Source of the DNA: Herbidospora daliensis
GTDB taxonomy: Bacteria > Actinomycetota > Actinomycetes > Streptosporangiales > Streptosporangiaceae
Reading direction: 5' to 3'
Assembly: GCF_001570585.1 (NCBI RefSeq)
Contig: NZ_BBXF01000008.1
Location: 62,001 to 126,000, forward strand
Length of the DNA stretch: 64,000 bases
Part shown: positions 33,561 to 54,467 of the stretch, in pieces
Position numbering within the stretch: the stretch's first letter is position 1
Layout of the letters: every line of letters starts with the position of its first letter
Translations under genes and position numbers: made by a program
Notes under the pieces: model-generated
Seen by the model: the letters and a program-made list of their open reading frames with translations, nothing else
Database searches by the model: none
What the model was told of the DNA's origin: nothing

Positions 33561-33599
33561 TGACGCTTGTCACGTATGGCTGGTGTTAATCGTTTCTGG
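33561..33599 (+). promoter_or_regulatory. Conserved upstream element of precursor 1
   Basis: TGACGCTTGTCACGTATGG contains an inverted TGAC/GTCA and is followed by GGTGTTAATCGTTTCTG. The same arrangement without gaps occurs before precursor 2 (34128-34166), and related TGATG-x-x-CGTCATGG forms occur before the other four precursors. Likely operator or promoter for the leader-peptide genes; the two response regulators in the cluster are candidates to bind it. Confidence 0.55.
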
Positions 33600-33641
33600 T
33601 GACGACGGTCGAACATGGCGAATCTGGACACGTGACGAAAT

Positions 33642-33670
33642 GGCAGCGAGTAGTCCAGATGCCCGCTGCC
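33642..33670 (+). promoter_or_regulatory. 5'-leader stem-loop of precursor 1
   Basis: Arms GGCAGCGAGT and GCCCGCTGCC pair (one mismatch, one G-T) around the 9-base loop AGTCCAGAT, 48 bases before the start codon. The same loop with different but compensating arm sequence occurs at 34207-34235 and 35922-35950. That pattern suggests a structured RNA element. Confidence 0.6.
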
Positions 33671-33718
33671 GAAACCGCCGGAAACCGGTTATGCGCCGAG
33701 GCAGAAGGAGTTCCCCCA

Positions 33719-34045
33719 ATGGCCGAAAGCATTTACGTTCTTGGTGACGAAGACCGCCAGAAGTTCGCCCGCCTGATCGCCGCCGCATGGTCGGACGAAG
33801 ACGTCAAGACCCGCTTCGAGGCGGAGCCCCGCTCGGTGCTCGCCGAGTACGGCGTCGTCATCCCCGAGGGCATCCCGACCCCGCCGCTGCCCGCCCGCCC
33901 CGAGGGCGAGTTCAGCGTCGAGGAGCTGGAGATGGCGGCCGGCGCGCAGGCCGAGGGCACCGCCGGCACCGCCGGCACGCTGGGCACCATCGGCGGCTGC
34001 TTCGGCACCGCCGGCACCTACGGCTCGGCCGCCGCCGCCATGTAG
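33719..34045 (+). CDS. NHLP-type precursor peptide 1 (triplet core)
   Basis: 108 residues. The leader (MAESIYVLGDEDRQKFARLI, AAAWSDEDVKTRF, VLAEYGVVIPEG) is a nitrile-hydratase-like NHLP leader and ends near EELEMAAGA, a probable cleavage site for the C39 exporter. The core that follows is built of Gly-Thr/Cys/Ser-x units: GTA, GTA, GTL, GTI, then a lone Gly, then GCF, GTA, GTY and GSA, and ends AAAM. It has seven Thr, one Cys and one Ser, nearly all after Gly, which suits cyclodehydration to azoles or dehydration. The start ATG 33719 has GAAGGAG upstream. Followed by a strong hairpin. Confidence 0.88.
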   Translation: MAESIYVLGDEDRQKFARLIAAAWSDEDVKTRFEAEPRSVLAEYGVVIPEGIPTPPLPARPEGEFSVEELEMAAGAQAEGTAGTAGTLGTIGGCFGTAGTYGSAAAAM

Positions 34046-34061
34046 TCACGCCGGCCTGATC

Positions 34062-34098: not shown

Positions 34099-34127
34099 TT
34101 TCGCATTCCGGTGTCATCGATTCCATA

Positions 34128-34285: not shown

Positions 34286-34600
34286 ATGGCCGAAAGCATC
34301 TACATTCTCGGTGACGAGGACCGCGCGAAGTTCGCCCGCCTGATCGCCGCCGCGTGGGCGGACGAGGACGTCAAGGCCCGCTTCGACGCCGAGCCCCGCG
34401 AGCTGCTCGCCGAGTACGGCGTCGTCATCCCCGAGGGCGTGCCGACCCCGCTGCTGCCCGCCCGCCCCGAGGGCGAGTTCAGCGTCGAGGACCTGCAGGT
34501 GGCGGCCGGCGCCCAGGTCGAGGGCTGCGTCGGCACCGCCGGCACGCTCGGTACCATCGGCGGCTGCGCCGGCACCGCCGGCACCTACGGCTGCGCCTGA
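34286..34600 (+). CDS. NHLP-type precursor peptide 2 (triplet core)
   Basis: 104 residues, a close paralogue of precursor 1 with nearly the same leader (MAESIYILGDEDRAKFARLI; ending EDLQVAAGA). The core reads GCV, GTA, GTL, GTI, a lone Gly, then GCA, GTA, GTY and GCA. Against precursor 1, Thr and Ser positions are replaced by Cys, keeping the Gly-x frame. Interchange of Cys with Thr/Ser at fixed positions suits a heterocyclising YcaO enzyme better than a fixed lanthionine pattern (inference). ATG 34286 has AAGGAGA upstream. It has its own operator-like element, stem-loop and terminator, so it looks like an independent transcription unit. Confidence 0.88.
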   Translation: MAESIYILGDEDRAKFARLIAAAWADEDVKARFDAEPRELLAEYGVVIPEGVPTPLLPARPEGEFSVEDLQVAAGAQVEGCVGTAGTLGTIGGCAGTAGTYGCA

Positions 34601-34700: not shown

Positions 34701-35453
34701 GTGAGCAGACCGGGAGAATCCGGGCAGCGGACGTCCGTGCGCGCACCCCTTGAGGTGCGGGTCGGGCGGGCCGCCATCATCGCGTTCGCGCTGTTCCTCA
34801 TCAGCCAGACCTTCGCCCACTACATCCAGAACGACCCCGGCCGGGCCGTGCCCGCCGTGATCCTGGGCGCCGCCGTGGTCGCCCTCTACGCCTGGGCCGC
34901 CATGGGCGCCCGGGGCCGCAGACGCTGGTGGATCGCCGGGGCGATGTCCGTGCTCGTGTACGCGCCGCTGCCGCTGCTGGGCGAGTGGTGGGCCATCTCG
35001 GGCGTCTTCCTGGCCGCGACGGCGCTGGGCTTCCTGTCGCGAAAATGGGCGCTGCCCGCGTTCGCGCTGGTGCTCGCGGTGGAGCTGGTCAAGTCGCTGG
35101 CCCTCGGCGACACCATGGCCAAGGCCATGTCGTGGATCCTCATCGTCGCGGTGGCCTCGGTCCTGCTCGCCGCGCTCACCCGGTTCGCCGAGACGGCGCG
35201 GGTGCTCTACGAGACCCGGGCCGAACTCGCCGCCGCCGAGGTGGCCGCGCAGCGGGTGCGGGCCATGGGCGAGCTCGAAGGCATCCTCGGCAGCCGGCTC
35301 GACACCGTCGCCCGGCGGGGCCTGGCGGTGCTCGGCAAGGCCGGCGGCGACGCCGAGACCGCCCGGACCGAGCTGCGCGGCATGCTCGACGTGGCGCTGG
35401 AGGCCCAGCGCGAGATGCGGGAGTTCGCACACCGGGGTCAGCACCTCACATAG
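34701..35453 (+). CDS. Degenerate histidine-kinase-like membrane protein
   Basis: 250 residues. Five or six membrane helices are followed by a helical segment aligned with the dimerisation and phospho-acceptor region of NarL-type kinases. Where the intact kinases of this cluster read ARELHDVLGHNL and AAELHDLLGQTL, this protein reads MGELEGILGSRL: the phospho-acceptor His is Glu. There is no ATP-binding domain; the protein ends with REFAHRGQHLT. It cannot be a normal kinase and may act as a membrane sensor partner or decoy for the two complete kinases downstream. The GTG start 34701 has no clear ribosome site. It lies between precursors 2 and 3. Confidence 0.75.
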   Translation: MSRPGESGQRTSVRAPLEVRVGRAAIIAFALFLISQTFAHYIQNDPGRAVPAVILGAAVVALYAWAAMGARGRRRWWIAGAMSVLVYAPLPLLGEWWAISGVFLAATALGFLSRKWALPAFALVLAVELVKSLALGDTMAKAMSWILIVAVASVLLAALTRFAETARVLYETRAELAAAEVAAQRVRAMGELEGILGSRLDTVARRGLAVLGKAGGDAETARTELRGMLDVALEAQREMREFAHRGQHLT

Positions 35454-35611: not shown

Positions 35612-35899
35612 ATGCCGGAAGACTCGACGCTGCCCCCCGAACTCCGTACCCGGTTCGCCCGGTTCTCCGCTCTCGCCTGGTCAGACGAGGCGCTCAGGGA
35701 GGACTTCGAACGGGACCCCCGCGCCGCGCTCGCGGCGGCGGGCCTCGACTGGCCGGGCGACCTGCCGGTGCCGCGGTTGCCCGCACGGCCGGAGAACGCC
35801 ATCGACCTGGAGAGCCTGGAGGCGTCGGCCGGCGCCGCCCTCAGCACGATCGGCACCGTGAGCTGCCCCACCGGGTGTTTCTCCCGCCAGAACAGCTGA
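35612..35899 (+). CDS. NHLP-type precursor peptide 3 (lanthipeptide-like core)
   Basis: 95 residues. The leader keeps the NHLP pattern (RFARFSALAWSDEALREDF, RDPRAALAAAGL) and ends LEASAGA. The core is ALSTIGTVSCPTGCFSRQNS, with Thr/Ser residues before two Cys, typical of a lanthipeptide substrate. Aligned with precursor 6 it shares the pattern x-T-I-x-T-V-x-C-x-x-x-C. The start ATG 35612 is supported by GAGGTG upstream; an in-frame start 14 codons earlier is possible but lacks leader similarity. Confidence 0.82.
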   Translation: MPEDSTLPPELRTRFARFSALAWSDEALREDFERDPRAALAAAGLDWPGDLPVPRLPARPENAIDLESLEASAGAALSTIGTVSCPTGCFSRQNS

Positions 35900-35993: not shown

Positions 35994-36272
35994 ATGACCC
36001 TAGACACCAACGGCCTGGACACCGCCCAGCGCAGAGTGTTCGGCGAGCTGACCGCCCGCTCCTGGTCCGACGCCGCTCTCCGGCTCCGCTACGAACGGGA
36101 GCCCGCCGCCGTCCTGGCCGAGTACGACATCCACCTCGCCGACGGCATGCCCGCGCCGGCGCTGCCCCCGAGGCCCGTCGCCGAGGTCGTCGTCGAGACC
36201 CTCAGCGACCCCGCCGCCTTCGTACCGCCCTGCCTGGACTTCTGCCTCTGCTTCATGCAGGTCTCCAAATGA
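35994..36272 (+). CDS. NHLP-type precursor peptide 4 (Cys-only core)
   Basis: 92 residues with a divergent NHLP leader (RVFGELTARSWSDAALRLRY, REPAAVLAEYDIHL). The end, SDPAAFVPPCLDFCLCFMQVSK in two parts (SDPAAFVPP and CLDFCLCFMQVSK), has three Cys and only one Ser, so it offers almost nothing for a LanM dehydratase but could be heterocyclised or disulfide-bonded. The AGA cleavage motif of the other precursors is absent. ATG 35994 has GGGGAGA upstream (GTG 35991 possible). Its stop overlaps the next start by ATGA, tying it to the export operon. Confidence 0.78.
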   Translation: MTLDTNGLDTAQRRVFGELTARSWSDAALRLRYEREPAAVLAEYDIHLADGMPAPALPPRPVAEVVVETLSDPAAFVPPCLDFCLCFMQVSK

Positions 36273-36982
36273 CGGCGACCGCCGTCGAGACGTCCGGGGG
36301 CGAGCGCATCGAGCAGCTCGTCTCCACGGTGCGGACCAAGGCGTGGCTGGCCGCGGTCGCCCTCGTCGTGGTCGCGGGCAGCGGGGCCGGCTGGGCCTGG
36401 CTCGGGCAGGTGCGCGACGTCGTCCTCGCCTCCGGCGTGCTGGTGGCGGGCGGCGGCCCGGCCCCCGTCGCGGCCCCGGTCGCGGGCAGCCTGGCCGAGG
36501 TGCTCGTCTCGGCCGGGCAGGAGGTGGCTCCCGGCACGTCGCTGGCCGTGCTGGCCGGCGCCGACGGGACCCGGCGCGTCGTGGTCGCCGCGTCGGCGGG
36601 CCGGGTGATCCGCACCGCCGTGCCGGGCGCGGCGCTGGCCGCGGGCGCGCCCGTCGCGGTCGTCGACCCCGCCGCCGGGCCGCTGAAGGCCGTGCTGCTG
36701 GTCGGCCCCGAGCGGGTCGGCGCGCTCACCGCCGGCCAGCCGGTCACGGTCACCGGCGCCGGTCCCGGCAGGGTCAGCGCGGTTGGCCCCTATCCCGTCT
36801 CGACCGACCAGCTGCGCCCCGTCTACGGCGACGCGCTCACGGCCGACGGCCGCTACCTGGTGACCGTCGACCTCGACCGCCCGGCCTGGCCCGGCGCCAC
36901 GCTGACCCCCGTCGCCGGGGAGATCACGGTCGCCACCGTCCGCCCGGTGGACGCGCTGTTCCACGGAGGTTCCCGTGGCTAG
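36269..36982 (+). CDS. NHLP-system secretion protein (HlyD-like)
   Basis: 237 residues with one N-terminal membrane helix (AWLAAVALVVVAGSGAGWAW) and biotinyl-lipoyl-like hairpins (APVAGSLAEVLVSAGQEVAPG, here cited to its key GSLAEVLVSAGQEV), the shape of a membrane-fusion protein. It should bridge the exporter across the cell envelope. It overlaps precursor 4 by ATGA and the peptidase-exporter gene by 8 bases, so the three are co-translated. Confidence 0.85.
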   Translation: MTATAVETSGGERIEQLVSTVRTKAWLAAVALVVVAGSGAGWAWLGQVRDVVLASGVLVAGGGPAPVAAPVAGSLAEVLVSAGQEVAPGTSLAVLAGADGTRRVVVAASAGRVIRTAVPGAALAAGAPVAVVDPAAGPLKAVLLVGPERVGALTAGQPVTVTGAGPGRVSAVGPYPVSTDQLRPVYGDALTADGRYLVTVDLDRPAWPGATLTPVAGEITVATVRPVDALFHGGSRG

Positions 36983-39134
36983 GACCGCGACCCGGCCGGT
37001 CCGCACCGAGCGCCGCCCGCAGATGGAGGACGCCGACTGCGGGCCCGCCTGCCTCAGCATGGTCTTCGCCTATCACGGCCTACGCGTCCCCCTGCACGAG
37101 ATCAGGGAGCGGTCGGGCGTCGGGCGCGACGGCCTGTCGGGGGCGGGGCTGAAGAAGGCGGCCGAGGAGTACGGCTTCGACATCACCGGCTTCCGCCTCG
37201 ACGCCGACGAACTGGTCGACTACCCCGTCCCGTCGATGATCTTCGTCGACCAGCGCCACTTCGTGGTGCTGGAGGGCATGCGCAAGAAGTGGGCGTACGT
37301 CAACGACCCCGCCATCGGCCGGATCAGGCTCACCCGGCAGGAGTTCCGCAAGCGGTTCAGCGGGATCGTGCTGGTGCCGCGCCCCGGCGCGGGCTTCACG
37401 CCCGGCGGGAAGCGGTTCCCGCTGGTGCGCTCCGCGCTGGGGAAGGTCCGCCCCTACCTCTCCACGCTGCTCGCCATCGCCGTGATGGCCTTCATGCTCG
37501 CGCTGCCCGCCGTGGCGACCGCGCTGCTCACCCGGCTGCTGCTGGGCGAGGTGCTGATCGCGGGGGAGACCACCTGGTCGGCGCCGGTGCTGCTCGGCCT
37601 GCTGGCCTGCGCCGCGTTCACCCTGGCCGGAACCTGGCTGCAACAACGGCTGCTCGGCTCGGTGCAGACCGCGATGGCGGCCGACCTGTCGGGCCGGTAC
37701 ATGTGGCGGCTGCTGCGGCTGCCGGGCGACTTCTTCCACCGCCGGATGACCGGCGGCCTGGTGATGAAGACCTCGTTCGGCGCGGGCCTGGCCATCCTGC
37801 TGTCAGACCGGGCCGCCGCCGCGGTGGCGGCGGTGCTGACGATGCTGCTGCACTCGGCGATCCTGTACGCCTTCCACCCCGCCTTCGCCCTGGTCGCCGG
37901 CGCCCTGGCGGCGATCAACCTGCTGGCGATGCGCGCGGTCAGCCGGGCCGCCGCCCCGCACCAGCAGAAGCTGCTCTTCGACGAGCACCGCCGCGACGGC
38001 ATGGCCTTCAACGGCATCTCGATGGCCGAGTCGCTCAAGGCCGACGGCGCAGAAGGCTGGTTTTTCCAGAAGTGGGCGGGCCTGTCGGCCAAGGCGCTGG
38101 CGACCACCCAGGACCTCATGCGGACCACCCAGGCGCTCCTGGCGGTGCCGGCCGCCCTCGGCTCGCTGGCCGGCGCGACCATGGTGATCACCGGCGCGGT
38201 GCTGATGGCGAACGGCGAGGTCACCCTGGCCACGGTCATCGCCGCCCAGCTCCTCGTCGGCGCGTTCCTGGTGCCGGTCACCGCCCTGGTCGGCATCGGC
38301 GCCGAGGCCCAGATCGCGGTCGCCCAGACCAGCATGTACGACGACGCGATCAGCGCCGAACCCGATCCCCAGTACGCCGCCCTCCCCGGCGCCCCCGAGG
38401 TCGACGGCGGCCTGCGCGGCGCGGTCGAGTTCCACGACGTCAGCTTCGGCTACGACCGCCAGCGCGGCCCCGTCATCAGCGGCCTGTCGTTCCGGGTCGA
38501 ACCCGGCCAGCGGGTCTCGGTCGTCGGGCGTACCGGCAGCGGGAAGTCGACCGTGGCCCGGCTGCTCACCGGCGCGGTCAAGCCGTGGTCGGGCCAGATC
38601 CTCCTCGACGGCATCCCCCGGGAGCACTGGCCCAGGGAGACGCTCACCACGTCGATCGGCTACGTCGAGCAGAACCTCCAGGTCTTCGAGGGCACCGTCG
38701 CCGACAACCTGACGCTCTGGGACCCGACGATCCCGCAGTACCGGCTGCACCGGGCCCTGTCGGACGCCGGCCTCGCCGACGTCGTGGCCCGCCGCGGCGG
38801 CCTGTCGGGCGGCTGGATCCAGGAGCGGGGCCGCAACCTGTCGGGCGGCGAACGGCAGCGGCTGGAGATCGCGCGGGCGCTCGTGCTGTCGCCCTCGGTG
38901 CTGGTGCTCGACGAGGCCACCAGCGCCCTCGACGCCGAGACCGAGGCGAACGTCGACGCCAACGTGAAGTCGCGCGGCTGCACCAGCGTGGTGATCGCGC
39001 ACCGGCTCAGCACCGTGCGCGAGAGCGACCTCATCCTGGTGCTCGACCGGGGGAAGGTCGTCCAGCGCGGCACCCATGCCGAGCTCATCGCCGTCCCCGG
39101 CCACTACCGCACGCTCGTCGAGGAAGCGTCATGA
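36975..39134 (+). CDS. NHLP export ABC transporter with C39 peptidase
   Basis: 719 residues: C39 peptidase (about 1-150), six-helix membrane domain (about 160-440) and ATPase (about 470-719). The peptidase Cys22 lies in MEDADCGPACLSM, its His in DQRHFVVLEGM and Asp in NDPAIGRI. ATPase motifs: GRTGSGKST (Walker A), LSGGERQR (signature) and VLVLDEATSALD (Walker B). It should cut the leaders, probably after the AAGA/SAGA motif, while exporting the cores. GTG 36975 overlaps the HlyD gene; it ends coupled to the second exporter by ATGA. Confidence 0.93.
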   Translation: MARTATRPVRTERRPQMEDADCGPACLSMVFAYHGLRVPLHEIRERSGVGRDGLSGAGLKKAAEEYGFDITGFRLDADELVDYPVPSMIFVDQRHFVVLEGMRKKWAYVNDPAIGRIRLTRQEFRKRFSGIVLVPRPGAGFTPGGKRFPLVRSALGKVRPYLSTLLAIAVMAFMLALPAVATALLTRLLLGEVLIAGETTWSAPVLLGLLACAAFTLAGTWLQQRLLGSVQTAMAADLSGRYMWRLLRLPGDFFHRRMTGGLVMKTSFGAGLAILLSDRAAAAVAAVLTMLLHSAILYAFHPAFALVAGALAAINLLAMRAVSRAAAPHQQKLLFDEHRRDGMAFNGISMAESLKADGAEGWFFQKWAGLSAKALATTQDLMRTTQALLAVPAALGSLAGATMVITGAVLMANGEVTLATVIAAQLLVGAFLVPVTALVGIGAEAQIAVAQTSMYDDAISAEPDPQYAALPGAPEVDGGLRGAVEFHDVSFGYDRQRGPVISGLSFRVEPGQRVSVVGRTGSGKSTVARLLTGAVKPWSGQILLDGIPREHWPRETLTTSIGYVEQNLQVFEGTVADNLTLWDPTIPQYRLHRALSDAGLADVVARRGGLSGGWIQERGRNLSGGERQRLEIARALVLSPSVLVLDEATSALDAETEANVDANVKSRGCTSVVIAHRLSTVRESDLILVLDRGKVVQRGTHAELIAVPGHYRTLVEEAS

Positions 39135-41650
39135 GCGGATACCCCGTCACCGAGATCGAGCTGATCGACCCCTACGCCTGCTGGACCGTCGTCAGCGGCT
39201 CGGTCGACGTCATGCTCTCGCCCGTCGACGGCGCCGGACCCCGTCACCGCGTGGTCCGGGTGGAGAGCGGCCAGCTCATGCACGGGTTCGCCGCCACCGA
39301 CCTGCCCGGCGGCTACACCGTCGTGGCCTCGCCCGCCGAGGGGACCTCGGTCCGCCGCGTCCGGCGCGACGCCGACGCCGTCTCCTCCTGGGTACGCCGC
39401 CTCAACGGCCCCGCCGGCGGCGACGCCCCCAGCCTGCGCGACCTGCATCGCGGCACCCTCACCCGGGTGCTCATGCTGGCCGAGGCGGAGGAGGCCGATC
39501 GCGACCACTGGCGGAAGGCCCGCGCCCAGGCGGCCGACGACATGCTGCGCCGCTCGTTCGCCGACATCGCGGCCGCCGCCGGGGTGGCCCCGGTGCCGGG
39601 CAGCCCGCGTACGGCCGCCGACCGGGCGATGGAGGTCGTCAAGGCGCTCGGCGACCACTGCGGGTTCGAGGCGCACGCCATCGACCCCGCGTCCACCGAC
39701 CCGCTCGGCGCGGCGCTCGACCTGGCCAGGGCCCGGCACCGGAAGGTGCTGCTCGACGACGGCTGGTGGCGCGCGGCGACCGTGCCGCTGGTCGGCTTCC
39801 TCAAGGCGGGCGGGCGGCCGGTCGCGCTGCTGCCGCACAAGGGCGGCTACCTGATCGCCGACCCGACGGAGGAGACGCGCAAGGTCACCGACGAGGTGGC
39901 CGCGACCCTCGACGCGCGGGCCTGGCAGATCTACCCGCCGCTGGAGGAGGGCGTCACCTCCCCGCTCGCGCTGCTCCGCTACGGGCTGCGCGGCGCGGGC
40001 CGCGAACTGGCCTGGCTGCTGGCGGCCGGCGGCGGGGCGGCGCTGCTCGCGCTCGGCGTGCCGATGCTGACCTTCGTGCTGCTGACCGCCGCGCAGAACC
40101 CGGCCGACCAGCCGGCCATGATCTGGATCGCGGTCGTCATCGCGGGCGCGGTGGCCGCCAGCACCCTGCTGCTGGCGGTGCGCAACGCGGTGCTGGTCAG
40201 GGTGCAGGGCCGGTTGCAGGAACGGCTCGAACCGGCCATCTGGAGCCATCTCGTCTCGCTCGACCTGCCGTTCTACTCCCAATACAGCACCGGCAACCTG
40301 GTCCACCGGGCCAACGCGGTGGCCGACATGCGCAAGGCGCTCGGCGAGGCGGCCGTCAACTCGCTGCTCGGCGGCGTGTTCTCGCTGCTGGGGCTGCTGA
40401 TCCTGGTGACCGTCGACTGGCGGCTCGCGCTGGTCGTGCTCGGCGGGGTGCTGGTGCTGCTGGCCGTGCTGGCCGCGCTCGCGGTGCGCCAGCAGAAGCA
40501 CGAGCTGGTCATGCACGAGGAGTACGGCCGGATCTACTCCCTCCTGTACGCCTGCCTCAGCGCCATCGACAAGATCCACGTCGCCGGCCGGGAGGCGCAG
40601 GTCTTCGGGCTGTGGTCGCGGGCGTTCTCCGCCCAGCAGGGCGCGGCCTCGGCGGCCCGGCGCGAACGCGCGCTGTCGGCGGCCATCGGCGCGGCGGCCC
40701 AGCCGCTGCTGCTGCTCCTGCTCGCCTTCACCGGGTTGTCGCTGGGCGTGCCGGCCGCCTCGTTCGTGGTCGCGGCCGTGGCGCTGGGCCAGTTCGTCCT
40801 GGCGCTCGGCCAGGTCAGCCGGGCGGTGGAGGCGGCGTTCGCGCTGCTGCCCCGGTTCGAGCGGCTGAAGCCGCTGCTGGAGCGGGCGCCCGAGACGCCG
40901 CCGGGGGCCAAGGACCCGGGCGAGCTGGCCGGGCTGGTCCGGCTGCACGACGTGTCGTTCGCCTACCCGGGCACCGCCAAGCAGATCCTCGAAGAGGTCT
41001 CCATGGTGTTCCGGCCCGGCGAGTTCGTCGCCGTCACCGGCCACTCGGGGGCGGGCAAGTCGACGCTCGTGCGCCTGCTGCTCGGCTTCGAGCCGCCGCG
41101 TACCGGACAGGTCCTCTACGACGGCGGTGACCTGCGCGACCTCGACCTGCGGCGGGTGCGCACCCAGGTGGGCGTGGTGATGCAGCAGGCCCGGGTGCTG
41201 CGCGGCTCGGTGCTGGAGAACATCATCGGCGACGTGCCCGGCGCCCGCGAGGAGGACGCCTGGCGGGCCGCCCGCCTGGCCGACCTCGACGGCGACATCG
41301 CCCGGTTGCCCATGGGCATGCACACGATCATCAGCGAGGACAACGCCTCGTTCTCCGGCGGCGAGCTGCAACGGCTGCTCATCGCCCGCGCGCTGGTGAA
41401 ACGGCCCCGGGTGCTCATCCTCGACGAGGCGACCAGCGCCCTCGACAACGTCACCCAGGCGCTGGTCAGCCGCCGGATCGCCGAACTCGACATCACCCGG
41501 ATCGTGATCGCGCACCGGCTGAGCACCATCAGGTCGGCCGACCGGATCTACGTACTCGACCAGGGCAGGGTCGTCGCCAACGGCACCTTCGAGCAGCTGA
41601 TGGAGGACGACGAGCTGTTCGCCCGGATGGTCCGCCGACAGGAGGTCTGA
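39131..41650 (+). CDS. NHLP export ABC transporter, permease/ATPase subunit
   Basis: 839 residues. A long N-terminal region of about 290 residues without a peptidase active site (cyclic-nucleotide-binding-like start, then a degenerate peptidase-like part around HKGGYLIADPTEE) precedes six membrane helices and an ATPase with GHSGAGKST, FSGGELQR and VLILDEATSALD. In NHLP systems this subunit pairs with the peptidase-bearing exporter. It is coupled to that gene by ATGA and followed after one base by the LanM gene. Confidence 0.92.
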   Translation: MSGYPVTEIELIDPYACWTVVSGSVDVMLSPVDGAGPRHRVVRVESGQLMHGFAATDLPGGYTVVASPAEGTSVRRVRRDADAVSSWVRRLNGPAGGDAPSLRDLHRGTLTRVLMLAEAEEADRDHWRKARAQAADDMLRRSFADIAAAAGVAPVPGSPRTAADRAMEVVKALGDHCGFEAHAIDPASTDPLGAALDLARARHRKVLLDDGWWRAATVPLVGFLKAGGRPVALLPHKGGYLIADPTEETRKVTDEVAATLDARAWQIYPPLEEGVTSPLALLRYGLRGAGRELAWLLAAGGGAALLALGVPMLTFVLLTAAQNPADQPAMIWIAVVIAGAVAASTLLLAVRNAVLVRVQGRLQERLEPAIWSHLVSLDLPFYSQYSTGNLVHRANAVADMRKALGEAAVNSLLGGVFSLLGLLILVTVDWRLALVVLGGVLVLLAVLAALAVRQQKHELVMHEEYGRIYSLLYACLSAIDKIHVAGREAQVFGLWSRAFSAQQGAASAARRERALSAAIGAAAQPLLLLLLAFTGLSLGVPAASFVVAAVALGQFVLALGQVSRAVEAAFALLPRFERLKPLLERAPETPPGAKDPGELAGLVRLHDVSFAYPGTAKQILEEVSMVFRPGEFVAVTGHSGAGKSTLVRLLLGFEPPRTGQVLYDGGDLRDLDLRRVRTQVGVVMQQARVLRGSVLENIIGDVPGAREEDAWRAARLADLDGDIARLPMGMHTIISEDNASFSGGELQRLLIARALVKRPRVLILDEATSALDNVTQALVSRRIAELDITRIVIAHRLSTIRSADRIYVLDQGRVVANGTFEQLMEDDELFARMVRRQEV

Positions 41651-41651
41651 A

Positions 41652-44600: not shown

Positions 44601-44777
44601 GCCCGCGACCTGGCCGCCGAACTGATCCTCCGCCGTGACCACACCGGCCGCTGGTTCGCCGACCGGCGCCGGGCCGACCGGCTCTCCCTGTCCGCCGTCA
44701 ACGGACTGGCCGCCGCCGGTCTCACCCTCCTGCGGCTGGCCGACGACGAGGTCGCCTCCATCCGGCTCGTGCACTGA
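41652..44777 (+). CDS. LanM-type lanthipeptide synthetase with degenerate cyclase domain
   Basis: 1041 residues. The N-terminal dehydratase part keeps GDLHNHGR (Asp267, His269), VVYKPKDL and the IDLE metal motif, so it can probably phosphorylate and eliminate Ser/Thr. The kinase-like catalytic loop, normally DLHxEN, is DLWADN (364-369), with His replaced by Trp. The C-terminal LanC-like part has the fold repeats (LLTGTAGLAVF, VNGLAAAGLTLL) but not the zinc ligands: the expected WCHGxPG reads FALDTPG (Cys to Ala917) and the expected CHG reads CAG (958-960, His to Ala959). The cyclase should therefore lack its zinc. GGAGG precedes ATG 41652. It may dehydrate only, or rely on non-enzymatic or external cyclisation (inference). 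Confidence 0.88.
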   Translation: MPVTIPQHEGLLSVPGGDARLMAVIAAAAPFHERVAGDHFVPVAGRSRRQASERTQRWLRAAVGDDEDAKRAVLHHRNRSGRDLGAGLVDVQLADPRRLPDWGYALVDFLLAQPPTAAADPATGRPGAPFVAFRRAMNRLVDVKDGSVRGVPVTAEAREDIAGQLIERLTQACWAGFAFEAQLAGTSNDLSSWLQSPGLDVSQSGWLDRLETLPGLAYVMGTTCLQWRRVVHELFDRLRADLPRLRRTLWGWAAPGPVTGYSGDSGDLHNHGRVVTLLTFASGERVVYKPKDLRSVAGLMDVCTLLNNHGLPLALHTREVVLRDGYGWEEYVVAEPGTDEDSVRRFYTRLGMFARLAQFLECRDLWADNLVAIGETPAFIDLENVLQGRISQPAVIGERIEALWGKVEDTVVKTAVVSFPRPIAGGVQAQDVGCLAALREQIAENSAGFPAGWEEPPYRPTWGDGELADPRDYADEVAEGYRQMQACLERNQELLADDYGPLALLEDAPVRYIWRSTFDCGDMLRLSVSPGALVDGVAREVCLAHLFRSAMGTLRVDPGRTDILEIIEQEIDAFRRMDIPLFLSKPASDSAFTPDGVEIPGHFTGTAWQRLQDRVADLAGFPLEEHLGVLQTCLDITGAAEMPVEFPGAAPRPKTIREIGLHAYEQAARGDEPPVEELLARAGDLANEILAAAVPVGGDRSAWLGVVTYPAHGLDQVEPLHGDLLTGTAGLAVFLSELYANTGAPGHWTAAQEALDASVEFAVLSAQSAVYRRMCGGLSPVGAFVGVGSAVYALSRCGEALGDTRLIERAAELLPLAEAQLAGTTSAEPVLGRAGLLLAVHRLRAASATAVPAADALARRLHEELLAESPARLPHPPGVAALAGVPTGADGLTWALASSTAAFGDPPAESLTAHRFALDTPGSLLAAVATAHALTGEVPAGLRDHVARHCAPDPARTCAGLVADAEIALHTARLTGDQGLARTARDLAAELILRRDHTGRWFADRRRADRLSLSAVNGLAAAGLTLLRLADDEVASIRLVH

Positions 44778-48455: not shown

Positions 48456-48767
48456 ATGGCCGAGAGCATGTACGTGCTCGGAGAAGACGACCGAAAGAAA
48501 CTGGCCCGCCTGATCGCCGCGGCGTGGTCGGACGCCGAACTCCAGGCGCGCTACGCGAGCGAGCCCCGGGCCGTGCTGCGGGAGTTCGGCATCGTCTACC
48601 CGGCCGGGGTGCCCACCCCGCCGCTGCCGGCCAAGCCGGAGGGCGAGTTCGAGATCGCCGACCTGGAGAGCGCGGCCGGGGCGGCCGGCCTGACGACCGG
48701 CAGCGTCGGCGAGCCGTGCGCGTCGTGCTATTCGCAGGGCGCGACCTGGATCACCGGCAACCACTGA
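48456..48767 (+). CDS. NHLP-type precursor peptide 5
   Basis: 103 residues with the leader MAESMYVLGEDDRKKLARLI, then AAAWSDAELQARY and VLREFGIVYPAG, ending LESAAGA. The core, AGLTTGSVGEPCASCYSQG followed by ATWITGNH, has two Cys and several Thr/Ser. It differs in length and ending from the other cores. ATG 48456 has GAGGAGCG upstream. Preceded by copy 1 of the 79-base repeat. Confidence 0.85.
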   Translation: MAESMYVLGEDDRKKLARLIAAAWSDAELQARYASEPRAVLREFGIVYPAGVPTPPLPAKPEGEFEIADLESAAGAAGLTTGSVGEPCASCYSQGATWITGNH

Positions 48768-48882: not shown

Positions 48883-49179
48883 ATGGCCGAGTACCTGTAC
48901 ATCTTCGGAGATGAGGACCGCAAGAAGTTCGCCCGGTTGATCGCGGTCTCCTGGTCCGACGGCGAGCTCCTGGCCCGCTACGAGGCCGAACCCCGCGTCG
49001 TGCTCGGCGAATACGGGATCGCCTACCCCGAGGGCCTGGCCACCCCGCCGCTGCCCGCCCGGCCGCGCGGCGAGTTCGACATCACCGAGATGGAGTTCGC
49101 GGCCGGCGCCGAGAACGGCGCGCTCGCCACCATCAGCACGGTCGGCTGCATCGCCCTGTGCCACTCGGATCCGCGATGA
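48883..49179 (+). CDS. NHLP-type precursor peptide 6 (lanthipeptide-like core)
   Basis: 98 residues. Leader MAEYLYIFGDEDRKKFARLI, AVSWSDGELLARY, VLGEYGIAYPEG, ending EFAAGA. The core ENGALATISTVGCIALCHSD (then PR) shares x-T-I-x-T-V-x-C-x-x-x-C with precursor 3 and looks like a two-ring lanthipeptide substrate. ATG 48883 has an upstream GAAGGAATGAGAG. Its stop overlaps the ABC ATPase start by ATGA, linking the last precursor to an exporter or immunity unit. Confidence 0.86.
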   Translation: MAEYLYIFGDEDRKKFARLIAVSWSDGELLARYEAEPRVVLGEYGIAYPEGLATPPLPARPRGEFDITEMEFAAGAENGALATISTVGCIALCHSDPR

Positions 49180-50093
49180 ACGACCCGGTGATCGAGGTCG
49201 CCGACCTGCGGAAACGGTACGGGGACTTCACCGCGGTCGACGGGGTCTCCTTCGACGTCCACGCGGGCGAGGTGTTCGCCCTGCTCGGCACCAACGGGGC
49301 CGGCAAGACCACCACGATCGAGATCCTGGAGGGCTACCTGCGGCCCACCGGCGGCACGGCGAAGGTCTTCGGCCACGCCCCCGCCGACCGCGGCCCGTTC
49401 CGGTCGCGGATCGGAGTGGTCCTCCAGGAGTCCGGCCTGTTCGGCGACTTGTCGGCGGCCGAGACGGTGACCGCCTGGCGGCGGTTCACCACCGGCGCCC
49501 GGACCGTCGCCGAGGCCCTCGACCTGGTCGGCCTGTCGGGCCAGGCGCACACGCGGGTCAAGCAGCTGTCCGGCGGCGAACGCCGCAAGCTCGACCTCGC
49601 GCTGGCCACGCTCGGCCGTCCGGAGTTGCTGTTCCTCGACGAGCCGACGACCGGCCTCGACCCCGAGGCGCGCCGCCGCATCCGCGACCTGGTCAGGGAG
49701 ATGGCCGACGCGGGCACGACGGTGCTGCTCACCACCCACTACCTGGAGGAGGCCCAGGAGCTCGCCTCCCGGGTGGCCATCATGGACAAGGGCCGCGTCG
49801 TGGTGCACGGCACGATGGCCGAGGTGCTCGGCCGGGGCACCGGACGGGTCGCCTTCGACCTGCCCGAGGGCGCGACCACCGACGGGCTGGAGGTCGGCCC
49901 GTCCGATGTGGTCACGGTGACCGGGCGCAGCTGCCTGATCGTCACGGCCGAGCCCGAGTCGGCCGCGCACACCGTGCTCGGCTGGTCGGTCCGGCGCGGG
50001 GTGCGCATCAGCGGCCTCGACGTGCGCCAGGCCACGCTCGAAGAGGTCTTCCTGGACGTCGCCGCGACGCGCGGGCGGGAGGTGCGGGCGTGA
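49176..50093 (+). CDS. ABC transporter ATP-binding protein (ABC-2 type)
   Basis: 305 residues. Walker A GTNGAGKTT, signature LSGGERRK, Walker B LLFLDEPTTGLD and the switch TTHYLEEAQ are present. It overlaps precursor 6 by ATGA and the permease by GTGA. In peptide clusters such pairs usually provide self-protection or a second export route; no DrrA-like specificity can be assigned. Confidence 0.92.
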   Translation: MNDPVIEVADLRKRYGDFTAVDGVSFDVHAGEVFALLGTNGAGKTTTIEILEGYLRPTGGTAKVFGHAPADRGPFRSRIGVVLQESGLFGDLSAAETVTAWRRFTTGARTVAEALDLVGLSGQAHTRVKQLSGGERRKLDLALATLGRPELLFLDEPTTGLDPEARRRIRDLVREMADAGTTVLLTTHYLEEAQELASRVAIMDKGRVVVHGTMAEVLGRGTGRVAFDLPEGATTDGLEVGPSDVVTVTGRSCLIVTAEPESAAHTVLGWSVRRGVRISGLDVRQATLEEVFLDVAATRGREVRA

Positions 50094-50821
50094 CGGCGTA
50101 CACGATCGCGCACTTCCGGTTGACCCAGCGGTTGTTCTGGCGCACCCCCGTGTCGATCTGGGTGGCCCTCGGCTTCCCCGTGCTGTTCGCGTGGTTGCTG
50201 CCGCTGGCGGTGCCCGACCCCGAGCGGCTGATCGTGGGCGTCATCGTGATGGGGGCCGGGCTGCTCGGGTTCGCGACGCTGCTGGAGTCGTTCGTCGTGA
50301 AACGCCAGCAGCTGATCCTGAAGCGGCTGCGCGGCACCGAACTGCCCGAGATGGCGATCTTCGGCGGTGAGATCCTGACCGTGGTGTCGATCGGGCTGGT
50401 CCAGCTCGTGGCCATCGTCGCCGTGGCGAACGGCGTGCACGGGCTCGCCCTGCCGGCGCACCCGGCGCTGCTGCTGGTGACCATCATGCTCGCGCTCGCG
50501 GTGTTCGCCGCGATGGGCGTCGCGGTGAGCGGCCGGACCCCCTCGACCGGGGCTGTCATCGCGGGGAGCCTGCCGTTCCACCTGCTCACCATGGGCCTGT
50601 CGGGGTTCGCGATCCCCTATTCGGCCTTCCCCGGCTGGGCCCTGACCGTCAACGGCTTCCTGCCGTTCGCGCGGGTCGCCGAAGGGGTGTCCCTGTCCTA
50701 CTTCGACCCCGAGGCCGGGCTCCCGGAGCTCGGGCCGGGGTGGCTCGTCCTGATCGTGTGGTCGGTCCTGTCGCTGCTGGCGGCGAGGAGGTGGTTCAGA
50801 TGGGAACCGCGCAGAGGCTGA
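50090..50821 (+). CDS. ABC-2 type transporter permease
   Basis: 243 residues with about six membrane helices (LIVGVIVMGAGLLGFATLL, LLLVTIMLALAVFAAMGVAV). The short segment LKRLRGTELP is typical of DrrB/ABC-2 permeases. Coupled to the ATPase by GTGA and overlapping the kinase gene by 22 bases. Partner of the ATPase in export or immunity. Confidence 0.88.
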   Translation: MTAYTIAHFRLTQRLFWRTPVSIWVALGFPVLFAWLLPLAVPDPERLIVGVIVMGAGLLGFATLLESFVVKRQQLILKRLRGTELPEMAIFGGEILTVVSIGLVQLVAIVAVANGVHGLALPAHPALLLVTIMLALAVFAAMGVAVSGRTPSTGAVIAGSLPFHLLTMGLSGFAIPYSAFPGWALTVNGFLPFARVAEGVSLSYFDPEAGLPELGPGWLVLIVWSVLSLLAARRWFRWEPRRG

Positions 50822-51990
50822 CCGGCGTCGGCCCCGGCACGGTCCGGCTCGCCCGCATCGCGGCGGCCGTCTTCACCGTGGGCATGGCGATCTTCGCCGT
50901 GCTGCCGCTCGCGGAGGTCCTGGGGCGGTTCCCCGGCCTCCGGGGCGCGCTCGCGGTGCTGCTGCTGACCGGGCTCACCGGGGCCTACCTGTGGCTGGGT
51001 GTGCGGGCCGTGCTCGGCCGGGGCGGCCGGCCCGACCTGGTGGTGCTGGCCGCGATGACGGCGGTGGCCGCGGCGCTGCCGTTCGCCGCCGGGCCGTCGT
51101 GGCTGAGCCTCGGGTTCATGCTCCCGTACGCCTATGCGGTGACCCTGCGCGGCAGGGCGGCGTGGGCGGGCTTCTTCGCGGCGCTGGTCCTGGAGGTCGG
51201 GCTGTCGGCGGGCCCGAATCCGAGCTGGGTGTTGTTCAGCGGGCTGCAGAGCCTGCTCACGGCGGCCGCGCTCGCGGGCCTGACCATCTTCGCGACGCTG
51301 CTGAGCGAACTGCAGCGCACCCGCGAGGAACTGGCCCGGCTCGCCATCACCGAGGAGCGGCTGCGGTTCGCCCGCGAGCTGCACGACGTGCTCGGGCACA
51401 ACCTGTCGGTCATCGCGATGCGCACCGAGTTGTCGATGCGCATCCCCGCCGACCAGCGGCCCAAGCTGAACCGCGAACTGACGGAGATCCACGACATCGC
51501 GCGGCGCTCCCTCCACGACGTGCGCGCCGTGGTCAAGGGCTACCGCGAGATGTCACTGGAGAAGGAGCTGAGCGGGGTCAGGAAGGTCCTGGAGAGCGCC
51601 GGGGTCAAGTGCGACTTCGCCGCCCTGCCGGTCACGTTGTCGGCGGAGGTCAGGGTCGCGCTGGCCTGGGCGGTCCGCGAGGCCGCCACCAACCTGCTGC
51701 GGCACAGCGACGCCACCGTGTGCCTGCTCGACGTCGAGGAGGACGGCGACCGGATCAGGGTCACCGTCTCCAACGACGGTGTACGCCCGTCGCCGCCCGA
51801 GAAGGCGACCGACGCCGCCGACGCCGCTGTGGGCGGGAGCGGCCTGGCCGGGCTCGACGAACGCCTCGCGCAGGTCGGCGGGAACTGCGACCGGCACCTC
51901 GAAGACGGCTGGTTCACGCTGTCGCTGGACGTTCCCGGCCGCCCGACGGCGGCGGCCGCTCTCACCTCTGCCACAGGAGACCGGAAATGA
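50800..51990 (+). CDS. Sensor histidine kinase, NarL-type (first pair)
   Basis: 396 residues: about five membrane helices, then a HisKA_3 domain with the phospho-acceptor in RFARELHDVLGHNL, and an ATPase domain (VREAATNLLRHS, GGSGLAGLDERL). The membrane-buried sensor suggests it detects a membrane-active molecule, perhaps the peptide itself (inference). Starts at ATG 50800 after GAGGAGG, inside the permease gene, and is coupled to its response regulator by ATGA. Confidence 0.9.
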   Translation: MGTAQRLTGVGPGTVRLARIAAAVFTVGMAIFAVLPLAEVLGRFPGLRGALAVLLLTGLTGAYLWLGVRAVLGRGGRPDLVVLAAMTAVAAALPFAAGPSWLSLGFMLPYAYAVTLRGRAAWAGFFAALVLEVGLSAGPNPSWVLFSGLQSLLTAAALAGLTIFATLLSELQRTREELARLAITEERLRFARELHDVLGHNLSVIAMRTELSMRIPADQRPKLNRELTEIHDIARRSLHDVRAVVKGYREMSLEKELSGVRKVLESAGVKCDFAALPVTLSAEVRVALAWAVREAATNLLRHSDATVCLLDVEEDGDRIRVTVSNDGVRPSPPEKATDAADAAVGGSGLAGLDERLAQVGGNCDRHLEDGWFTLSLDVPGRPTAAAALTSATGDRK

Positions 51991-52628
51991 TCAAAGTTCT
52001 GATCGCCGAGGACCACGATCTCATCAGAGGAGCCCTGATCGCCCTGCTGTCGGAGGAGCGGGACATCCGGGTCATCGAGGAGGTCTCCCGGGGCGACGAG
52101 ATCCTGCCCGCCGTCGTCGACAGCAAGCCCGACGTGGCCCTCCTCGACATCGGCCTGCCCGGCATCGACGGCCTGGAGGCGGCCGGCCTGATCAAGGAGC
52201 TGGAGCAGCCGCCGCCGGTGCTGATCCTGACCAGCGTCGGCTCACCCGGCAACTTCGACCGGGCGATGGCCGCGGGCGTGCGCGGCTTCCTCGTCAAGGA
52301 CGCGCCCGCCCACCGGCTCACCGACGCGATCCGCGCAGTGGCCAGGGGCGAACGCTACATCGACCTCGACCTGGCCGACGACGACGGCGACGGCGGCCGG
52401 GAACCGGAGATCACCACCAACCCGCTGACCGCGCGGGAGATCACCGTGTTGTCGGCCCTCGCGGCCGGCGGGCGCGGCAGCGACCTGCGCGGCAGCCTCG
52501 GCCTGTCGGCCCACACGATCCGCAACTACCTCGCCGCCGCCCGGCTGAAGACCGGCGCGCGCAGCGACGAGGAGGCCGTCCGGATCGCCCGTGCTAACGG
52601 GTGGTTAAACGACAATGCCGACTGTTGA
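51987..52628 (+). CDS. LuxR/NarL-type response regulator (first pair)
   Basis: 213 residues. Receiver domain with phosphorylatable Asp in DVALLDIGLPGID and Lys in GFLVKDAPA; LuxR-type helix-turn-helix at the end (NPLTAREITVLSALAAG, GLSAHTIRNYLAAARLK). Partner of the kinase to which it is coupled. Likely controls the transporter and perhaps the precursor genes. Confidence 0.92.
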   Translation: MIKVLIAEDHDLIRGALIALLSEERDIRVIEEVSRGDEILPAVVDSKPDVALLDIGLPGIDGLEAAGLIKELEQPPPVLILTSVGSPGNFDRAMAAGVRGFLVKDAPAHRLTDAIRAVARGERYIDLDLADDDGDGGREPEITTNPLTAREITVLSALAAGGRGSDLRGSLGLSAHTIRNYLAAARLKTGARSDEEAVRIARANGWLNDNADC

Positions 52629-52696
52629 TCCTGAATCGCTTAAGCGTCACGATCAGTAGGAAACTTGACGCCTCGGACACGTAGCGGAGACCACTC

Positions 52697-53845
52697 GTGG
52701 CGCAGGAGAACGAAGCGCAGGTCAGGGGGCTGTCGATAGGTGTCGTCGTGCCAACGGGCGCGCTCTGGGGTCTCACCCCCATCGCGTTCCTGCTCAGCGG
52801 CGACCCGCTCCGGGCACTGCTGTCGGGCGTCCTGCTCGCCGGCCTCCTCGTCGTGTACTGGAAGGTCGTCGTCGGCCACATCGCCGGAACGGGCCCCGGG
52901 CCGCACGCCGGCCGGACCTTCGCGCTGTTCGCCGTCGTCGTCTACGGCTCGTTCCCGCTGCTGGGGCTGGCGTGGGCGTACATGCCCCTCATCGTCGGCA
53001 GCGCGGCCCTGCTGCTGCTCCGCTTCCGCCTCGCCGCGCCCGTGCTCGCCGCCGTGACCGCCGCCGAGATCCCGCTGACGCTGACCATCGGCGGCCTCGC
53101 CCGCAACGCCGCCCTCCAGGCCGCCGCCGCCGTCTTCGTCGCCTCCGTGGTCGCCGCCGGGATCGTCCACTACGCCAGGTTCATCAGGGAACTGCGTGAA
53201 CTGCGGGCCGTCCTGGCCGAGATGGCCGTGGACGAAGACCGCGTGCGCCTGGCCGCCGAACTGCACGACCTGCTCGGGCAGACGCTGGCGTCCATCAGGC
53301 TGAAGACCGAGGTCGCGCTGGCCCTGTTCGACCGCGACCGCGACCGCGCCATGGACGAGATCGAGGCCACCGTCCTCATCGCCAGCGAGGCCCGCGAGGA
53401 GATCGGCGACGTCGTCGCCGCCCGCCGCTCCCTCGACCTGGGCGCCGAACTGTCGGCCGCCGTCGCCCTCATCGAACTGACCGGCGCCCGCTGCGACCTG
53501 CGCCTCGGCCTCACCGAGATCGACGAGGTCACCGGCGACGCCCTCGCGTGGATCGTCAGGGAGGCCGCCACGAACGTCGTCAGGCACAGCACCGCCCGCA
53601 CCTGCGTCATCGAACTCGACGACAAGGACGGCCGCGTCCACCTGCTGATCACCAACGACGGCGCCCGCCGCGCCACCAGGGGCGACGGCTCGGGCCTCAT
53701 CGGCCTCCGGCAGCGCGTCGATCGGCTGCACGGCGACCTGAAGGCCGAAGAGACAGGCACGGACGGTTTCGAACTGCGGGTCTGGCTGCCCGCCGTACAC
53801 GATCAGGAGAGAGTGATCACCGTTGATTCGCGTTCTGCTGGCTGA
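52697..53845 (+). CDS. Sensor histidine kinase, NarL-type (second pair)
   Basis: 382 residues with four to five membrane helices, a HisKA_3 domain (RLAAELHDLLGQTL) and an ATPase domain (VREAATNVVRHS, DGSGLIGLRQRV). GTG 52697 lies 68 bases after the first response regulator, so it is in the same run of genes. It overlaps the second response regulator by 23 bases. Confidence 0.9.
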   Translation: MAQENEAQVRGLSIGVVVPTGALWGLTPIAFLLSGDPLRALLSGVLLAGLLVVYWKVVVGHIAGTGPGPHAGRTFALFAVVVYGSFPLLGLAWAYMPLIVGSAALLLLRFRLAAPVLAAVTAAEIPLTLTIGGLARNAALQAAAAVFVASVVAAGIVHYARFIRELRELRAVLAEMAVDEDRVRLAAELHDLLGQTLASIRLKTEVALALFDRDRDRAMDEIEATVLIASEAREEIGDVVAARRSLDLGAELSAAVALIELTGARCDLRLGLTEIDEVTGDALAWIVREAATNVVRHSTARTCVIELDDKDGRVHLLITNDGARRATRGDGSGLIGLRQRVDRLHGDLKAEETGTDGFELRVWLPAVHDQERVITVDSRSAG

Positions 53846-54467
53846 AGACCACGGTGTCGTCCGGGGCGCCCTCGCCGTCCTGCTGAACCTGACCGGCGAC
53901 ATCGAGGTCGTGGCCGAGACCGACCGCGGCGACAAGGTCGTCGCCCAGGCCCTCGCCGCCCGCCCCGACGTGGCGGTCGTGGACATCGAGATGCCCGGAG
54001 CCGACGGAATCGAGGCGACCTACCGGCTGCGCCAGGCGCTGCCGACGTGCCGGGTGCTCATCCTGACGGCCCTGGCCCAGACGACCCTGCTGAAACGCGC
54101 CATGGACGCCGGAGCCAGCGGCTTCCTGCTGAAAGACGCCCCGACCGAGCGGCTGGCCGAGAGCATCCGCCGCATCGCGGCCGGAGAACGCGTCATCGAC
54201 GCCACCCTGGCCCTGGCGGCGATGACCGCGACGGCCTCCCTGCTGACCGACCGGGAGGCGGACGTGCTGCGCCTGGTCGGGCTCGGCGCGACGACGGGGG
54301 AGATCGCGGCCGAACTGCACCTGTCGGCGGCGACGGTCCGGAACTACATCTCCAACATCATCACCAAGACGGGCGCCCGCAACCGGACGGACGCGGTGCG
54401 CATCGCGGTCGACTCGGGCTGGATCGAACGACCGCGCCCTAACGCCGCGACGCCGGCCCGCCGGTAG
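53823..54467 (+). CDS. LuxR/NarL-type response regulator (second pair)
   Basis: 214 residues. Receiver Asp in DVAVVDIEMPGAD, Lys in GFLLKDAPT, and a C-terminal LuxR helix-turn-helix (LLTDREADVLRLVGLG, HLSAATVRNYISNIITK). The start is TTG 53823, the only start in frame before a stop, with GGAGAG upstream. Its 3' end overlaps the convergent GAP1-like gene by 29 bases. Confidence 0.9.
   Translation: MIRVLLAEDHGVVRGALAVLLNLTGDIEVVAETDRGDKVVAQALAARPDVAVVDIEMPGADGIEATYRLRQALPTCRVLILTALAQTTLLKRAMDAGASGFLLKDAPTERLAESIRRIAAGERVIDATLALAAMTATASLLTDREADVLRLVGLGATTGEIAAELHLSAATVRNYISNIITKTGARNRTDAVRIAVDSGWIERPRPNAATPARR

Follow-up and report, generated by a model that had tools for sequence, protein, structure and literature searches.

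A probable dehydrazole-type peptide cluster with six precursors and a zinc-less LanM-like protein in Herbidospora daliensis

A stretch of 64,000 nucleotides from the soil actinomycete Herbidospora daliensis (contig NZ_BBXF01000008.1, positions 62,001 to 126,000; hereafter the window), belonging to a genome of 8.52 Mb and to a genus of the Streptosporangiaceae, carries 19 genes, all on the + strand between 33719 and 54467, that most probably specify a dehydrazole-type ribosomally synthesised and post-translationally modified peptide (RiPP), i.e. azole-bearing peptides, some of them also dehydrated, with a LanM-like protein serving as the dehydratase. An earlier note on this DNA had pointed to six precursors with nitrile hydratase-like leader peptides (NHLP), a two-part NHLP exporter, a LanM-type enzyme, an E1-YcaO protein, SagB, an ABC-2 pair and two kinase/regulator pairs, and had remarked that both enzyme sets share one gene run with clearly different core types. 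All these parts are indeed there, and two more genes come on top of them, one for an HlyD-like adaptor (36269-36982) and the other a third kinase-like gene in degenerate form (34701-35453). The inventory below rests on profile scans of 17 of the 19 genes against Pfam or NCBIfam (P1 and P5 being the two left out of these scans) and on reading of the frames.

33719..34045, + strand, precursor P1, 108 residues, core type A, with QAEGTAGTAGTLGTIGGCFGTAGTYGSAAAAM behind the AGA of the inferred cut site (translation; own-genome leader-profile match; orthologs)
34286..34600, + strand, precursor P2, 104 residues, core type A, 84% identity to P1 (TIGR04351 3.7e-14, below cut-off; NF033482 thiocillin-family 1e-8, above cut-off)
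34701..35453, + strand, degenerate sensor-kinase-like protein (no Pfam match; H-box alignment)
35612..35899, + strand, precursor P3, 95 residues, core type B, with ALSTIGTVSCPTGCFSRQNS behind the AGA of the inferred cut site (TIGR04351 5.8e-6)
35994..36272, + strand, precursor P4, 92 residues, core type C, Cys-only, VPPCLDFCLCFMQVSK, overlapping the HlyD start (TIGR04351 1.9e-16)
36269..36982, + strand, HlyD/NHLM adaptor (TIGR03794 1.9e-10, below cut-off; Pfam HlyD_3)
36975..39134, + strand, NHLM ABC1, a C39 peptidase/permease/ATPase exporter (TIGR03796 6.5e-220, below cut-off; Peptidase_C39 2.4e-34)
39131..41650, + strand, NHLM ABC2 permease/ATPase, ATG at 39131 (TIGR03797 5.9e-200, below cut-off)
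41652..44777, + strand, LanM-like protein of LanMbC type, DUF4135 dehydratase plus LanC-like C domain without zinc motifs (TIGR03897 1.6e-99, above cut-off; DUF4135 4.1e-78)
44788..47028, + strand, fused leader-binding/E1-YcaO cyclodehydratase of full-length LynD/TruD type (TIGR03604 2.3e-82 and TIGR03882 7.3e-48, above cut-offs; LynD 4v1t 6.7e-205)
47025..48350, + strand, SagB-type azoline dehydrogenase of cyanobactin-oxidase type (TIGR03605 2e-49, above cut-off; CyaGox 5lq4 6.1e-64)
48456..48767, + strand, precursor P5, 103 residues, core type D (translation; own-genome leader-profile match; orthologs)
48883..49179, + strand, precursor P6, 98 residues, core AENGALATISTVGCIALCHSDPR, type D by its leader, resembling type B (TIGR04351 9e-16)
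49176..50093, + strand, ABC-2 ATPase, probably for immunity or a second exporter (ABC_tran 2e-30)
50090..50821, + strand, ABC-2 permease (ABC2_membrane 8.4e-14)
50800..51990, + strand, histidine kinase 1 (HisKA_3 6.5e-16; H-box His kept)
51987..52628, + strand, LuxR-type response regulator 1 (Response_reg, GerE)
52697..53845, + strand, histidine kinase 2 (HisKA_3 3e-9)
53823..54467, + strand, LuxR-type response regulator 2 (Response_reg, GerE)

From P4 through SagB, successive genes overlap or lie 1-10 bp apart, so that this run is very probably a single operon; gaps of 94-240 bp precede P2 to P6, and some of these genes may have promoters of their own. The degenerate kinase-like protein is without a recognised ATPase domain, and the His of its H-box is Glu in 13 of 14 orthologs, the His being kept in one partial match from Nonomuraea maritima. 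Histidine kinases 1 and 2 retain this His in 15 of 15 rows each. The gene at 34701-35453 perhaps encodes a pseudokinase sensor. Rfam scans gave no match.

That the precursors carry NHLP-like leaders, as the earlier note had held, is borne out by TIGR04351 (TOMM_nitrile_2), which matches all four scanned (P2, P3, P4 and P6) at E values from 1.9e-16 to 5.8e-6, all below the cut-off; TIGR03793 matches two of the four, likewise below cut-off. A leader profile built from the six precursors returned seven matches in the own genome, i.e. the six themselves and one weak match (contig C4, E 1.6e-7). The latter, a distant NHLP-type sequence, lies about 1 kb from another YcaO gene, the genome having seven YcaO matches in all (contigs C1, C2, C4 and C8). 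Most diverged from P1 over the precursor are P3 and P4, at 44% and 35% identity.

What kind of enzyme is the LanM-like protein? In its dehydratase domain, eight of the nine catalytic residues named for CylM (PMC4550811) are identical in 15 of 15 clade members, as matched via pairwise alignments (the alignment that covers Arg506/Thr512 is weak, though its register holds). In its C domain, by contrast, Pfam LANC_like covers only positions 2-120 of a profile of 350 (the first third), and alignment with other LanMs shows the stretch that normally holds the WCxG and CHG zinc motifs to be deleted or replaced. By pattern count neither the window protein nor any of the 14 orthologs has the zinc motifs, whereas all 20 other LanMs do (WCxG with CHG or CCG). 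These controls comprise 16 loci from the family, two from the phylum sample and two Verrucomicrobia; the second motif reads CCG in place of CHG in three of these controls (L061, L040 and L041). Because the protein lacks the cyclase zinc motifs, lanthionines are not expected, and a class II lanthipeptide cluster, defined by a LanM with a zinc-binding cyclase, was rejected as the main reading on the same test. Judged by its sequence, the C domain is nevertheless not decaying: near the C-terminus RWF-DRRRAD is invariant in 15 of 15 rows, Micromonospora included, at overall identities down to 53%. An AlphaFold model is poor over the dehydratase (mean pLDDT, the predicted local distance difference test, 47.6) and mostly confident over the C domain; a fold search with the whole model gave LanCL2 and LanCL1 as best matches (top E 6.6e-4); other alpha/alpha barrels, among them cellobiose 2-epimerase, followed closely. 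The LanM-type synthetase proposed earlier hence stands as far as its nearly intact dehydratase is concerned and falls for its cyclase; the protein is probably no lanthionine synthetase.

The neighbouring genes divide the LanMs in the same way. YcaO and SagB relatives lie beside the LanM in the window and at every one of the 14 ortholog loci, as against none of the 20 others (tblastn at 1e-6 in fetched stretches of 14-23 kb). NHLP leaders, on the other hand, were rejected as exclusive to the zinc-less clade, since one of the 20 other LanM loci (L061) has a leader match without YcaO. A fused E1 and YcaO, SagB and a leader-bearing precursor (TIGR03604, TIGR03882 and TIGR03605) together identify a TOMM, or linear azol(in)e-containing peptide (LAP), system. 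As in cyanobactin pathways, YcaO is a full-length relative of LynD and TruD (aligned over residues 8-744 of 746; with MusD in two stretches) and SagB a relative of the oxidase CyaGox (aligned over residues 80-437); unlike in those pathways, the cluster shows no gene for a cyanobactin-type protease or macrocyclase. LynD and TruD are not known to act on residues other than Cys. The predicted azole columns here hold T and S besides C, and these columns suggest that the present YcaO may use Thr and Ser too.

Scanning of named genomes for the LanM returned 16 loci, 14 of them encoding relatives over the full length, 53-98% identical (five Herbidospora, four Nonomuraea, two Sphaerisporangium, Acrocarpospora, Sphaerimonospora and Micromonospora gifhornensis); the remaining two are Verrucomicrobial, at 25% identity. 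Herbidospora species are the nearest named relatives, the LanM being 98% identical to that of H. sakaeratensis. The gene order HlyD-ABC1-ABC2-LanM-YcaO-SagB is identical in all 14 named relatives, which excludes chance co-location. The periphery is more variable: no complete ABC-2 pair is present in L029 or L036, P1 of L035 comes after the degenerate kinase-like gene, and Micromonospora has no clear ortholog of that gene and carries two precursors after the enzymes, with none found before them. Leader matches in the relatives (L026-L039) number 6, 6, 7, 5, 4, 5, 4, 5, 5, 4, 4, 5, 2 and 4, and six precursors are thus usual only near the strain and are not fixed. Among 297 sampled genomes of the family, in each of which two candidates were scored so that misses are possible, 26 have a LanM match at 1e-30; 12 of these (the own genome included) fall in the clade at 74-100% identity and 14 have distant LanMs alone, at 29-32%. 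With the same two candidates scored per genome, one other sampled genome of the genus gave no LanM match. In a sample of 394 genomes of the class the clade was found within the family only (3 genomes at 1e-60), and 396 genomes of the phylum yielded the own genome and two weak matches.

The 72 precursors of these 15 clusters (window included) fall into four core types, assigned by patterns of our own making with poor fits kept in the counts (extra copies in L028, L029 and L037; L035 at 16932). Types A and B occur in 15 of 15 clusters and types C and D in 14, both being missing from Micromonospora. One three-residue grammar, x-[G/S/A]-[T/S/C], is common to types A, B and D, and type C departs from it. 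In type A (P1 and P2), an alignment of 22 rows made free of any pattern has eight columns that are mostly T/S/C, spaced by three with one step of four and each preceded by a column of mainly G or G/S, three of the latter being mixed (G/S 9/9, 9/11 and 11/9, gaps aside); an earlier type A block (17/22 fit) was set aside because its pattern presets some columns. The predicted azole columns thus vary mainly among C, S and T, and three of the columns before them between G and S. Type B, with the core ALGTIGTVSCPTGCF, is near-invariant, and in it alone conservation of the core exceeds that of the leader (mean pairwise identity 0.78 vs 0.68; core/leader values are 0.52/0.73 for A, 0.41/0.69 for C and 0.28/0.72 for D). 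Recent duplication or transfer was rejected as the cause, since codons differ synonymously at several of its invariant residues. Type C (P4) consists of PPC, a short stretch and mostly CFC, with nearly no G/S before Cys, whereas type D (P5 and P6) is hypervariable and yet keeps a period of three.

This periodicity is reflected in pairs of T/C at lag 3, which amount to 59/109 in type A (shuffle mean 0.19), 38/90 in type D (0.20) and 24/59 in type B (0.22), values reached by none of 1000 shuffles in each case. Over 61 distinct cores, S/T/C as the next residue is rare after T (16/199; shuffle 0.34) and C (5/131; 0.31) and frequent after G (136/224; 0.37), and Ser stands before S/T/C in 86 of 195 cases (0.44, vs 0.35 on shuffling). 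The grammar would accordingly mark sites of an azole with an optional dehydroalanine (Dha) before it, a prediction from the cores. A Ser directly before a predicted azole residue occurs twice in P3 (S-T and S-C) and once each in P5 and P6; the core of P4 is poor in S/T, and P4 has no G-G/G-A cut motif at the usual place.

An element, TGATGTCCGTCATGG...TGTCGTCTGCATCTG, stands before P5 and P6 (48346-48390 and 48780-48825); its first half recurs, with 0-2 mismatches, in Acrocarpospora, Sphaerisporangium fuscum and N. maritima, and it may be a regulator site. With up to 4 mismatches, a 15-base element from before P5/P6 precedes 26 of 58 type A/B/D precursors and 0 of 14 of type C, against a background of 36/500 random stretches of the loci and 18/720 shuffles. 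A common operator before all precursors was nonetheless rejected: the element is convincing for P5/P6-type genes, has one mismatch before P3 and is not general.

These features closely recall the dehydrazoles, defined by Pei, Zhu and Nair (2023, PMC10676384) as NHLP-led peptides made by a YcaO and a LanMbC, i.e. a DUF4135 dehydratase with a zinc-less cyclase domain, and represented in their account by about 50 clusters, mostly from Proteobacteria and Actinobacteria. In the text of that study, CcaM dehydrates only a Ser that precedes an azole, can dispense with the leader, requires both of its domains (with which the conservation of the C domain here fits) and gives a product, carnazolamide, without lanthionine; the azole sites of CcaA are 7, 10, 20, 23 and 26, which by our own reading is the same spacing of three as in the present cores. 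The window likewise has a DUF4135 dehydratase (4.1e-78) joined to a C domain devoid of zinc ligands, a YcaO adjoining this LanMbC (as in 14 of 14 orthologs), a dehydrogenase, and NHLP-like leaders (matches below cut-offs) before S/T/C-rich cores. It differs from cca, which has one precursor, in its six precursors of four core types, three of them without a Ser before an azole site, in the NHLM C39 exporter within the operon and the two two-component systems, and in that its 19 genes include no radical SAM epimerase, methyltransferase or S8 protease. That a LanM and a YcaO should occur together, which the earlier note had called unusual, is indeed uncommon and already belongs to a described class; the cluster is real and conserved, and most probably a member of this recently described, still small kind of RiPP cluster. 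The main text of Pei et al. contains neither the word Nonomuraea nor Streptosporang-, and the present cluster may be among their approximately 50.

From the gene content and order, the lost zinc motifs, the retained catalytic residues and the core grammar, all of which are observed, we infer the chemical steps, their order and the product as follows. The leader-binding domain of the fused YcaO would read the common NHLP leader, and the enzyme would form azolines at Thr, Ser or Cys that recur roughly every three positions and follow a small residue (x-[G/S/A]-[T/S/C]), to be oxidised to azoles by SagB. The LanM-like protein would then act as an ATP-dependent dehydratase alone, converting a Ser immediately before an azole to Dha and, its zinc cyclase site being gone, forming no lanthionine; the order, azoles first and Dha second, is taken from carnazolamide. 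The C39 peptidase of the NHLM exporter, by analogy with its family, would cut behind G-G/G-A before export. The ABC-2 pair possibly provides self-protection, and the two-component systems would control expression. Under this scheme P3 would bear two Dha besides its azoles, and P5 and P6 would have a single Dha apiece; for P1 and P2 the prediction is as many as eight azoles with Dha lacking altogether, and for P4, if a product arises from it, nothing beyond thiazoles.

Several observations weigh against this assignment. Membership of the dehydrazoles rests on features in common and not on a tree with CcaM, and, unlike in cca, whose zinc-less domain Pei et al. label a class III cyclase domain (PMC10676384), the C domain fits the class II model better than the class III one in four of four proteins scanned (89 vs 30 bits for the window). 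The ninth CylM residue, His349 of DxH, is Trp366 in 15 of 15 clade members and His in 18 of 18 actinobacterial controls, and this change might weaken phosphorylation; it is notable and yet need not be fatal, because the CylM H349A mutant still gave a small amount of dehydrated product (PMC4550811). (DxW as a signature of zinc-less enzymes is ruled out by Trp in both zinc-bearing Verrucomicrobial LanMs.) As for the cores, the G/S difference in type A largely separates the Herbidospora P1/P2-like copies from the rest and so reflects few events; type B has a lag-2 signal as well (22/59; reached by 1 of 1000 shuffles), and type C has lag 2 (17/52) but no lag-3 signal (9/51). Taken over all types, Ser stands before S/T/C modestly more often than on shuffling (reached by 5 of 2000 shuffles), the excess being weak in type D (177 of 2000) and absent in type C (1/15), and all these shuffle counts overstate independence, and with it the case, because the core sequences are related. 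Finally, P1, P2 and P4 have no Ser before S/T/C at all. The same gap has its use, as one operon thereby supplies natural negative controls.

Might the cluster instead make a true lanthipeptide-azole hybrid, whose C domain closes (methyl)lanthionines without zinc, like class III LanKC, via Cys spared by the YcaO? A class III synthetase that is metal-independent has been published (PMC10604976), PMC10783134 interprets a ProcM-like enzyme encoded next to ycaO and sagB in Synechococcus KORDI-100 as a possible hybrid of this kind, and the modelled C domain here has its best structural matches among LanC-like proteins, with weak similarity to LanKC. We nevertheless hold such a hybrid to be unlikely, as the Cys columns of type A also hold Thr and Ser, which is expected of heterocycles and not of thioether donors, and as carnazolamide, made by the same enzyme type, is described without lanthionine (PMC10676384).

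Two parallel pathways served by one leader, the LanM taking some precursors and YcaO/SagB others with no doubly modified peptide, would account for the four core types, for the divergence of P3 and P4 from P1, and for P4 having no suitable Ser and P1/P2 none before an azole candidate; type B and D cores, however, contain S-T and S-C pairs, at which the two predicted modifications would come together, and every LanM of the clade (window and 14/14) adjoins both YcaO and SagB, so that we give this arrangement rather little credence. Least of all do we expect the LanM-like protein to have decayed, or to be retained for structure alone, with plain azole peptides as the products. The lost zinc motifs, the DxH to DxW change in the kinase site and the three of six precursors without Ser before an azole candidate would agree with decay, but full-length identity of 73-98% to 12 relatives and 54% to Micromonospora, with eight of nine catalytic residues invariant, makes it highly improbable. 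The dehydratase-plus-azole reading should replace the picture of a LanM lanthipeptide/azole hybrid. A bolder extension of it, which we regard as possible though doubtful, is that one operon offers a natural substrate series for an azole-reading dehydratase, with a single heterocycle code running over cores as different as type B, near-invariant across genera and perhaps a conserved signal, and the hypervariable type D, with G or S before the heterocycle alone deciding on Dha, and with the DxW kinase site marking a changed phosphorylation/elimination mechanism.

Other known systems share parts of this design. In PMC10783134, a LAP-thiopeptide-like cluster of Synechococcus UW179A / BIOS-E4-1 is described with nine precursors of 'thiocillin' and TOMM/NHLP families and with an enzyme similar to CylM in its dehydration domain, the proposed Dha maker, so that a multi-precursor version is not new. 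Compared by description, not by sequence, it resembles the present cluster in its several precursors, LynD/TruD-like YcaO, stand-alone SagB and CylM-like dehydration domain, and differs in its cytochrome P450 and cyanobacterial origin; no product of it is given as known in that paper. Goadsporin and thiopeptides also combine azoles with dehydro-residues, through dehydration by a split, tRNA-dependent LanB that sets them apart from the present case (as outlined in PMC10676384). P2 scores above the cut-off of NF033482 ('thiocillin family'); the thiopeptide reading prompted by this match was rejected, as no LanB or [4+2] cyclase match occurs among 17 of 19 genes compared with Pfam or NCBIfam (P1 and P5 left out). 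The class II lanthipeptide synthetases CylM and LicM2 have a related dehydratase domain and differ by the zinc-site motifs (Cys875/Cys911/His912), absent here, and by His349, here Trp. Haft, Basu and Mitchell (2010, PMC2887384) had reported NHLP leaders beside TOMM enzymes in some genomes and LanM in others; in Azospirillum they saw NHLP genes with both a LanM-like gene and an unfused scaffold nearby. A class II cluster with six precursors listed for Herbidospora mongoliensis (Walker et al. 2020, PMC7268733) is probably the ortholog of the present one (L028, seven leader matches). In keeping with the earlier note, the literature searched, mostly open-access and without bioRxiv preprints, held no described product with these cores or of this lineage.

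Elsewhere in the window, the stretch adjoining the cluster (54439-60562) has two genes without family match (744 and 464 residues), a further gene whose double-GTPase matches are weak and below cut-off, and one for a DUF4407 protein. At 28686-30707, a terpene cyclase of the family 2 encapsulin cargo type is followed by a geranyl diphosphate 2-C-methyltransferase, a gene pair resembling 2-methylisoborneol genes. On the - strand, 6177-6869 encodes, as called, the C-terminal part only of a TnpB-family RNA-guided endonuclease (NF040570, profile 164-389 of 389), perhaps a truncated IS200/IS605 remnant.

What would the cluster mean for the family? If the dehydrazole reading is right, it corrects an annotation that would predict lanthionines, and points to an apparently unstudied set of azole peptides from the Streptosporangiaceae, one core of which is kept nearly fixed by selection. 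The operon holds precursors with 0, 1 or 2 Ser before predicted azoles and the relatives show G or S at the same columns; on that reading, the order of azole formation and dehydration in one peptide would be testable in one system.

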